NCBI RefSeq assembly: GCF_900107545.1
Contig: NZ_FNQZ01000014.1
Span: forward strand, 1 to 64,000
Reading direction: 5' to 3'
Source: Pseudobutyrivibrio sp. ACV-2
GTDB lineage: Bacteria > Bacillota > Clostridia > Lachnospirales > Lachnospiraceae
DNA length: 64,000 nt
Shown here: positions 20,246-44,911 of the stretch, piece by piece
How the letters are laid out: the number at the start of each line of letters is the position of its first letter
How positions within the stretch are numbered: the first letter of the stretch is position 1
Position numbers and translations under genes: made by a program
The notes under the pieces: generated by a model
What the model was told of the DNA's origin: nothing
Database searches by the model: none
The model's input: only the letters and a program-made list of their open reading frames with translations

Positions 20246-20433
20246 TTTCAATATAAGAGGAAATTGCTTCCTCAGTGAAAAAAATAGGACCTAATATTTT
20301 CACTATATCAACTTAATCTATCCAGGGTGAAAAAATGCCTATTTTATTTTCACTATAGAAAACTAATATGATCTATAGTGAAAATCTAGAGTGATATTTT
20401 TCACTATAATTAACTTATAGTCATATAGTGAAA
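20246..20433. repeat. Array 1: alternating TTTCAC / GTGAAA sites, period about 51 bp
   Basis: Eight sites fill the 20236-20459 gap. TTTCAC starts at 20246 (degenerate, TTTCAA), 20298, 20348 and 20399; GTGAAA at 20275, 20327, 20378 and 20428. Distances are 29-30 from TTTCAC to the next GTGAAA and 21-23 onward, giving repeats of 50-52 bp. The best copies extend to TTTTCACTATA and its complement. The sequence between sites is not repeated. The last site ends 26 bases before the next GNAT start. It is not a CRISPR array: the motif is too short and inverted each time. Confidence 0.8.
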
Positions 20434-42415: not shown

Positions 42416-42928
42416 ATGAAAACAGTTGTATTGTTATATGAAACTTGTTGTATATATGAAATCGTTATCACCAATTATTTTCTTCAGTACTGCGGACATG
42501 AATTGGTCTTTGCTACTATAGATGGTAAGCCAGTTACTGCTCAGGAGAAATTCTCTTTGAATGCAACTTGTGCTTTAAAAGATATTGATCCCAAAGAGGT
42601 AGAACTGCTTCTAGTACCAGGCGGAGATATTTCATCAATTGCAAATGAAGAAGTATATTCATTTATCCGAGCTGTAGCGGCTAATATGCAGTTGGTTGCT
42701 GGAATATGTAACGGTGTGGATGAATTGGATAATGCTGGAATTCTTGAAGGTATAGATTCTACCCATTCACTTAAGGATGACCTTGTTGTAGGAGAGCACG
42801 TAATCACTGCAAGAGCCAACATGTACGTGGACATGGCGATAGCTATTGGAAAGAAAATGAATCTTTTTGTAGATGAAGCTGATTTGCAGGAAACAATTGA
42901 TTTTTGGAAGTTTTATAAGGGTTTTTAG
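42416..42928 (+). CDS. DJ-1/PfpI-family protein
   Basis: 170 residues. The fold shows in VELLLVPGGDISSI and the nucleophile elbow VAGICNGVDEL with the conserved Cys, and in AHVITARANMYVDM-like C-terminal strand sequence (EHVITARANMYVDMAIAI). Members include glyoxalase III, deglycase-like and regulatory proteins. Repeat array 2 begins 10 bases after the stop codon. Confidence 0.88.
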   Translation: MKTVVLLYETCCIYEIVITNYFLQYCGHELVFATIDGKPVTAQEKFSLNATCALKDIDPKEVELLLVPGGDISSIANEEVYSFIRAVAANMQLVAGICNGVDELDNAGILEGIDSTHSLKDDLVVGEHVITARANMYVDMAIAIGKKMNLFVDEADLQETIDFWKFYKGF

Positions 42929-42937
42929 TGATGCGAG

Positions 42938-43361
42938 CACGCGGATTTGAAGTTCTTTTGGAATCGCGTGCCGGTTATGAGTGGCCCATACACGCGGATT
43001 TCAATTTAGTACAAAGGCGCGTGTAGGGAAAATGTGGATTTGACACGCGAATTTTAAGTTTGTCAGAATGCGCGTGTAGGCTTTAGCGGCTGTGAGCACG
43101 CGATTTTAACATTTTGAATTAATGGCGTGTCAGATATCAGGAAAAAAATAGAAATTTAAGGAAATCTATACACGCGGAATGGGCAATCTTTCATTAACGC
43201 GTGTCTTACAAAGCAAAAGTAAGCACGCGGAAACAGGAAAAGACTAATAACGCGTGTCAATTCAGGAAAACCTTACACGCGGAATTTGGAAAAAGTCAAT
43301 GCCGCGTGTCTAATGGTGGAAAACGCGACACGCGGATTGCTGCAAATCGTGAATACGCGTG
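42938..43361. repeat. Array 2: sixteen alternating CACGCG / CGCGTG sites, period 53 bp
   Basis: CACGCG starts at 42938, 42991, 43044, 43097, 43171, 43224, 43276 and 43329; CGCGTG starts 27 bases after each of them (the fourth is GGCGTG). Repeat distances are 53, 53, 53, 74, 53, 52 and 53, so the only irregular step, 21 bp longer, lies exactly between units 4 and 5. The conserved core is about ACACGCGG on one side and CGCGTGT on the other. The 20-21 bases between sites are unrelated to each other. No long coding frame covers the array. Confidence 0.9.
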
Positions 43362-43411: not shown

Positions 43412-43555
43412 ATGAATAAAGTAAAAACAGTAAAGGTTGCACTATATATAAGCGCTATACTTTTTTTAATAGCGGCTATTAGATCTGGGTATAGTGGAAA
43501 TGCAGCTATAGCTTGCGGATGTCTTGTTCTGGCTGTTCTTCAAAAAGAAAAATAG
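43412..43555 (+). CDS. Small membrane protein
   Basis: 47 residues, AGGAGG ten bases upstream. Two hydrophobic segments (9-23 and 30-43) around a short polar turn (AAIRSGYSGNAAIACG). The strong ribosome site supports a real gene. It stands between array 2 and a GNAT gene 40 bases downstream. No family recognised. Confidence 0.6.
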   Translation: MNKVKTVKVALYISAILFLIAAIRSGYSGNAAIACGCLVLAVLQKEK

Positions 43556-44664: not shown

Positions 44665-44911
44665 TACGGAATTTTTAGTGATTATGAGCCGATATTACGT
44701 AGTTGTATTTCTTATTTTGTAATTGATTACGGAATAGTCAACAGATAGTGGCCTTTGTTCCGTAGGATTTTAGTTATTGCCTTGATTTGGAATGAGCGAA
44801 TGTAGGAATTCCTACGGTAATTAGCGAGAAAACATGCATTATTCCGTAACTGATTCATAATTTAGAAATTTGGCTACGGAAAAATAAGAGAAAAAACTAC
44901 GATGTTCCGTA
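44665..44911. repeat. Array 3: eight alternating TACGGA / TCCGTA sites, period 63 bp
   Basis: TACGGA starts at 44665, 44728, 44813 (TACGGT) and 44875; TCCGTA at 44696 (degenerate, TACGTA), 44759, 44843 and 44906. Each pair is 30-31 apart and repeats are 63, 85 and 62 bp apart. The long step, 22 bp extra, is between units 2 and 3, the midpoint. The wider core is TTACGGAA and its complement. The centre also holds a 14-bp palindrome GTAGGAATTCCTAC (44802-44815). The sequence between sites is unique. Confidence 0.8.

Follow-up and report, generated by a model that had tools for sequence, protein, structure and literature searches.

The window analysed here, a stretch of 64,000 nucleotides from Pseudobutyrivibrio sp. 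ACV-2 (contig NZ_FNQZ01000014.1, positions 1 to 64,000), harbours an array of alternating inverted half-sites with the core CACGCG/CGCGTG on the 3' side of a DJ-1/PfpI family gene (Table 1). This array is one member of a widespread and apparently undescribed system of gut and rumen bacteria, made up of a nuclease-like protein family and regularly spaced arrays of its likely binding sites that co-evolve with it. A sequence-only reading of the window had described sixteen sites, with every CACGCG followed by CGCGTG 27 bp further on. The array is real and far beyond chance, but the exact motif CACGCG-N21-CGCGTG is found in seven of the eight units and 15 of the 16 hexamers are exact, the exception being GGCGTG in unit 4. 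Successive half-sites are 27 and 26 bp apart in alternation (once 25 bp), and the single 74-bp step reported at the centre does lie there, from 43097 to 43171 at the boundary of units 4 and 5.

Table 1. Arrays and neighbouring genes in the window.
Feature	Positions	Strand	Description	Basis
Array	42938..43361	.	8 dyad units, 16 alternating inverted half-sites, core CACGCG / CGCGTG	sequence
Unit 1	42938..42970	.	CACGCG-N21-CGCGTG	
Unit 2	42991..43023	.		
Unit 3	43044..43076	.		
Unit 4	43097..43129	.	degenerate right half-site GGCGTG	
Unit 5	43171..43203	.	behind 74-bp step (53 + 21)	
Unit 6	43224..43256	.	preceding 17 bp replaced, at the same length, in the orthologous G018 array	
Unit 7	43276..43308	.		
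Unit 8	43329..43361	.		
Left neighbour	42416..42928	+	DJ-1/PfpI family gene	Pfam
Right neighbour	43412..43555	+	47-aa open reading frame	
Second array	44665..44911	.	core TACGGA / TCCGTA, 7 half-sites, degenerate, 1.3 kb from the first	
Third array	20275..20432	.	core ~CTATAGTGAAAA / TTTTCACTATAG, 7 half-sites, period ~52 bp; between HD-domain gene and acetyltransferase gene	

On both strands of the window CACGCG occurs 18 times vs 3.0 expected, and 15 of these occurrences lie inside the array. The spaced CACGCG/CGCGTG pair was counted seven times vs zero in 100 dinucleotide shuffles, and the longest alternating chain, which has a length of eight with the array split at its 74-bp step, compares with at most one site in 100 second-order Markov simulations. 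CACGCG-N17..24-CGCGTG is confined to the window array in the 3.66-Mb genome, and two successive units recur in five stretches among 84,980 named genomes scanned. All five come from Lachnospiraceae, namely Butyrivibrio sp. NC2002, Agathobacter ruminis and a pair of metagenome-assembled genomes, one of which has two stretches.

Two of these five stretches (L026, L027) led from the array to a protein, as they carry homologous genes next to it; the remaining three showed no family gene within the 3.8-8 kb examined. The proteins are about 265 aa long, multi-copy and spread across Lachnospiraceae: within the window's genus all but one of 29 genomes (28) encode them, with up to 12 matches per genome, as do 108 of 299 genomes sampled across the family. 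Pfam scans of ten and an NCBIfam scan of five of them assigned no family and gave no HUH family, nor was a Nop-domain family among the Pfam matches of the ten. The C-terminal part matches PADLOC PDC-S68 in its nuclease portion (E down to 5e-30), and PHROGs of phage endonucleases and Holliday resolvases gave weak matches; these matches and fold comparison suggest that the C-terminal half is a PD-(D/E)XK-like nuclease, and the putative catalytic residues are invariant across 131 proteins. An AP2/Arm-type identity was guessed for the N-terminal sheet; the fold searches listed no such match, which excludes nothing. A viral origin was rejected, with no array pattern in viral contigs and none of seven protein stretches confirmed. 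Phage records gave one short faecal contig (31% identity over 85%) and two nuclease-part matches, and none of seven plasmid records spanned 80% of the protein, most showing the nuclease part inside AAA ATPases or a helicase.

Genes of this family are paired with arrays. In the window's genus, 54 of the 89 genes with enough upstream sequence carry a chain of at least five strictly alternating inverted hexamers in the upstream 900 bp; shuffling the 89 upstream regions gave no chain longer than three, and downstream chains were seen in 6/90. An enlarged set of different proteins gave such a chain just upstream of 76/127 intact genes (88 with a threshold of four) vs 2/8 short or partial ones (p 0.07, eight genes only, intactness being judged by length so that L060 and L073, which have an internal stop, count as intact). 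In other genera arrays reach up to 32 sites (L172). Several genes are flanked by homologous arrays, either as direct copies (L042, with 390 bp at 85%, L045, L098, L123) or inverted (L146). Cores vary with the lineage (CACGCA, GACACG, AGATAGTA, AGGTAGTA, GCAGTA, ATGCATCC, ACTGTA, CACGTA, ACTTAA, GATAAA and others), and among similar proteins the core tracks the N-terminal half and not the nuclease half. Three kinds of gene recur as upstream neighbours, each named from a Pfam scan of a single example: a ComEC-type competence protein at 15 loci (14 of them different, since L127 and L129 repeat L055 and L039), GMP synthase at 14 and an S-adenosylmethionine methyltransferase at 11. In a divergent branch of the family (L105, L123, L124, L125, L063), such arrays as were seen have A/T-rich cores and 72-75-bp periods, and in three of these five they lie downstream of the gene.

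Array periods are quantised by the helical repeat. The 65 distinct combinations of core and period fall at 50-54 bp (39), 61-65 bp (16) and 71-75 bp (10) with none between, and the fit is best for a repeat of 10.50 bp (R 0.85, Rayleigh p about 5e-21, treating related arrays as independent, as the co-occurrence and conservation statistics below do with related arrays, pairs or genomes). Among 81 measured arrays, four modal periods (28, 31, 31 and 37 bp) stem from overlapping hexamers and are left aside here. The helical phasing proposed from the window alone therefore holds and is strongly supported by the relatives, whose periods correspond to five, six or seven turns of B-DNA. Adjacent spacings are within 1 bp of the array mode in 705 of 775 cases; the 70 others deviate by 9-12 bp (21), 19-21 bp (8), a whole period (10) or otherwise (31, some of them again from overlapping hexamers). 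The 74-bp step of the window array (53 + 21) is consistent with this pattern. In several arrays one spacing class is constant and the other shifts by about one turn, the pattern to be expected if dimers were separated by gaps of variable length.

The half-sites are conserved while the sequence between them drifts. In eight gene-linked ortholog pairs, picked from 34 for a spacer divergence below 0.2 and one per locus group, half-site hexamers differ at 2/432 positions vs 142/1326 in spacers; all 34 pairs, which are non-independent and partly paralogous, give 26/1636 vs 1016/4756. Pairs had to share their best hexamer, which could favour conserved arrays. Arrays without a gene behave likewise, with 6/304 vs 76/857 differences in five such pairs, hand-chosen from a longer list and with a putative cognate gene for G026 and G006. 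Homogenisation affects the cores but for the most part spares the spacers, so each half-site seems to be selected on its own. The sequence-only reading had also considered hairpin pairing, from a G...C change flanking the core on both sides of unit 1. That change is present, but paired changes are rare across arrays and pairing gains no support: of 100 deviating dyad pairs, 87 changed on one side only and two were compensated.

Arrays also occur away from the gene, in alternating orientation, within one genome. Those with the core AGATAGTA lie in multiple places in genomes with the cognate gene and are present in 9/29 genomes of the genus, and CACG-class arrays in 11/29, two of them as single matches. 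For each of the two cores, arrays are found in all six genomes with a sampled cognate gene vs 3/23 others, and thus repeat abundance tracks the cognate gene as far as sampled, not all, homologs define cognate status. The first figure counts gene-linked arrays; excluding these leaves at least 5/6 vs 3/23 (p 0.0025), with G016 then lacking an array for AGATAGTA and, for CACG, G024 as well as the single matches in G010 and G027 taken as absent.

In the window's genome, CACG-class arrays are located on contigs C32, C33 (~880 bp), C41 (the window), C11, C23, C26 and C39. The copies on C11, C23, C26 and C39 are near-identical including spacers and flanks (92-99%), and therefore one array type has recently spread; C11 and C23 may be neighbours, since the end of one overlaps the start of the other. 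Arrays of this genome can lie within a non-coding repeat of ~420-830 bp (L237 5745-6575, L236 2374-2953, L238 7044-7675); the boundary sequence GTGGTCAA...AAGGCTTTGCAGC is common to these repeats and is found again at the opposite end.

Arrays are further targets of an insertion sequence (IS). All three copies found in G012 of an IS with an integrase-core transposase, which we read as IS3-type, lie in CACG arrays, each in the inner spacer between two half-sites; G020 gave no transposase match, and an array of like sequence is uninterrupted there. In L032 (7140-7300 and 10790-10930) and L033 (8361-8510 and 10500-10650) of G012, the arrays are bordered left and right by a structured element whose ends resemble GTTTCAACCTGC / GCAGGTTTGAAAC and whose two flanking copies are in opposite orientation; it looks like a separate repeat family. 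Along these arrays (L032 7309-10765, L033 8526-10481) the core shifts from CACGCG over CACGCA to CACGAA.

The window array is probably a gene-less member of such dispersed arrays, predicted to serve the cooperative binding of a DNA-binding nuclease of the ~265-aa family, in a manner resembling repetitive extragenic palindromes (REPs) and their REP-associated tyrosine transposases (RAYTs) but unrelated to them. Its likely cognate is the gene C32:25149-25928(-) of the same genome (G000), which is one of two family genes found there by search and the one that falls into the CACG clade, where all ten members have CACG-type cores.

How such a system might work can be outlined tentatively. Each protein lineage would recognise a half-site core of its own, with one dimer on every inverted pair, and a period of five, six or seven turns would keep neighbouring dimers on one face of the helix and allow cooperative coating of the array. 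Upstream of the family gene the array extends over the stretch that must contain promoter and leader, so the protein probably represses its own gene. The conserved nuclease domain would probably cut or nick at arrays, and repair of the breaks could expand, shrink and spread them, by analogy with what RAYTs are thought to do on REPs. Taken as a whole, this would be a second, independent REP/RAYT-like self-spreading system, a nuclease with phased arrays as its own operator and mobile substrate and with several parallel specificities per genome, where specificity is switched by exchange or fast evolution of the N-terminal half and all half-sites follow. We consider this full scheme possible, at odds that fall a little short of even, and such pairs of nuclease and array may represent a novel type of DNA that spreads itself or shapes genomes.

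Several observations weigh against these readings. Fold searches with the N-terminal model turned up no known DNA-binding fold, 51 of the 127 intact genes lack an upstream chain of five, and motif similarity correlates only weakly with sheet similarity across the full set of 3308 protein pairs (Spearman 0.161). For each core, arrays exist in three of the 23 genomes in which no cognate gene was sampled, and an array copied together with its spacers was seen in one case only. Concerning the window itself, the core CACGCG is unlike the CACGAA and CACGTA half-sites in the array of its supposed cognate, members outside the CACG clade (L066, L087, L112, L133, L174) also have CACGTA cores, at periods of 62-64 bp, and no family gene or remnant was found near the array among open pieces of at least 20 aa. 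Moreover, the window array and its G018 ortholog differ at 3/96 half-site and 10/311 spacer positions (20/328 including the replaced 17-bp block). These similar rates give no sign of special constraint, and this copy, which might still be bound, may be a decaying relic. All three half-site differences (42996, 43175, 43303) are transitions at CpG; with three events only, they might reflect cytosine methylation of CGCG.

Alternatively, the proteins could be ordinary transcription regulators with a retired nuclease fold and the arrays oversized operators, gene-less ones regulating their neighbours. The location directly upstream of the family gene, with conserved sites reaching to ~10 bp from the start codon in L068/L069, would suit such a role, which is nevertheless unlikely given the invariant catalytic residues and the placement of 19 gene-less arrays (from 20 loci, the span of L233 including a stray site): five lie between convergent, two between divergent and twelve between tandem genes, with no family gene in those stretches, and hence fit poorly with promoter control in general. 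Indifference to gene orientation and dense, phased site clusters dispersed within a genome could instead point to chromosome-organising or partition anchors, several systems per genome, and some arrays are retained vertically (L218/L232). We regard anchors as slightly less probable still, as cores and sites differ between species at the same location, near-identical copies have spread inside one genome and the nuclease is conserved.

Transcription of the array as a hairpin or guide RNA with two spacers per unit, CRISPR- or TIGR-like (tandem interspaced guide RNA), is highly improbable. Spacers of constant length between inverted repeats beside a nuclease gene do recall this layout, and PMC12045711 describes for TIGR-Tas 9-nt spacers, box C/D repeats and a Nop-domain protein; arrays of both kinds also have repeats differing between loci. 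In the present arrays, however, spacers are longer and drift like flanks (9/190 vs 9/268 differences in the L218/L232 ortholog pair), the period is locked to 10.5 bp, no Nop domain was matched in the Pfam scans, some arrays lie between convergent genes, paired changes are nearly absent and the window has no Rfam match, so that the hairpin or RNA reading was rejected and TIGR-Tas shares only the look. As regards CRISPR arrays, spacers are inherited and drift in ortholog pairs, and the 14 largest clusters of neighbouring open reading frames, judged by eye, include none that looks cas-like.

The nearest working analogy is REP/RAYT, as set out in PMC2817692, including bacterial interspersed mosaic elements (BIMEs). 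Shared traits are alternately inverted intergenic repeats both beside a cognate gene, at times repeat-flanked, and dispersed, core and protein that change together, abundance that tracks the gene, and IS insertion, for which PMC1525189 describes IS1397 (IS3 family) inserting into E. coli REPs. Actual membership is virtually excluded by an unrelated, PD-(D/E)XK-like protein instead of an IS200/IS605-type tyrosine (HUH) transposase and by the make-up of the arrays, which consist of short half-sites (~6-10 bp) placed in helical register at distances of ~20-45 bp, not of hairpin palindromes, and which lack pairing covariation.

Other nucleases resemble the family in part. Tn7 TnsA, Bax1, Hjc and the PADLOC PDC-S68 C-terminus share the predicted fold and the putative catalytic E/D/E pattern of the C-terminal half, but their matches leave the N-terminal half uncovered; a TnsB-like partner was looked for among the 14 largest neighbour clusters. 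Free-standing homing endonucleases likewise lie beside conserved genes (comEC-like, guaA), but differ by the many-site cognate array at the family gene, since a homing enzyme is expected to cut cognate sites standing at its own gene. No description of the system was found in the open-licence full text of PMC, which does not cover subscription journals and preprints, and the earlier remark that no named element has such a design agrees with our literature and library searches. If the interpretation is correct, a bacterial family prominent in gut and rumen would carry, in the intergenic DNA of each genome, several pairs of protein and array side by side that are unnamed in the libraries searched. 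Dozens of such pairs would provide a natural code from protein half to DNA core, from which DNA recognition could be learnt or engineered. They would also allow helical phasing to be tested cleanly in evolution and add a new example of how bacterial repeats and their proteins persist.

The window contains two further arrays (Table 1). The TACGGA branch of the family includes neither of the two genes that were found in this genome, and the TACGGA array is missing in the close relative G018, where parts of the stretch and parts of the next acetyltransferase gene are absent as well. In ten genomes with a PfpI match, the 3' side of this gene showed no array in four (one being a partial gene match), a one-unit remnant in one, short TACGGA arrays with exact chains of just 3-4 in three, all from the window's genus, and a CACGCG array in two.
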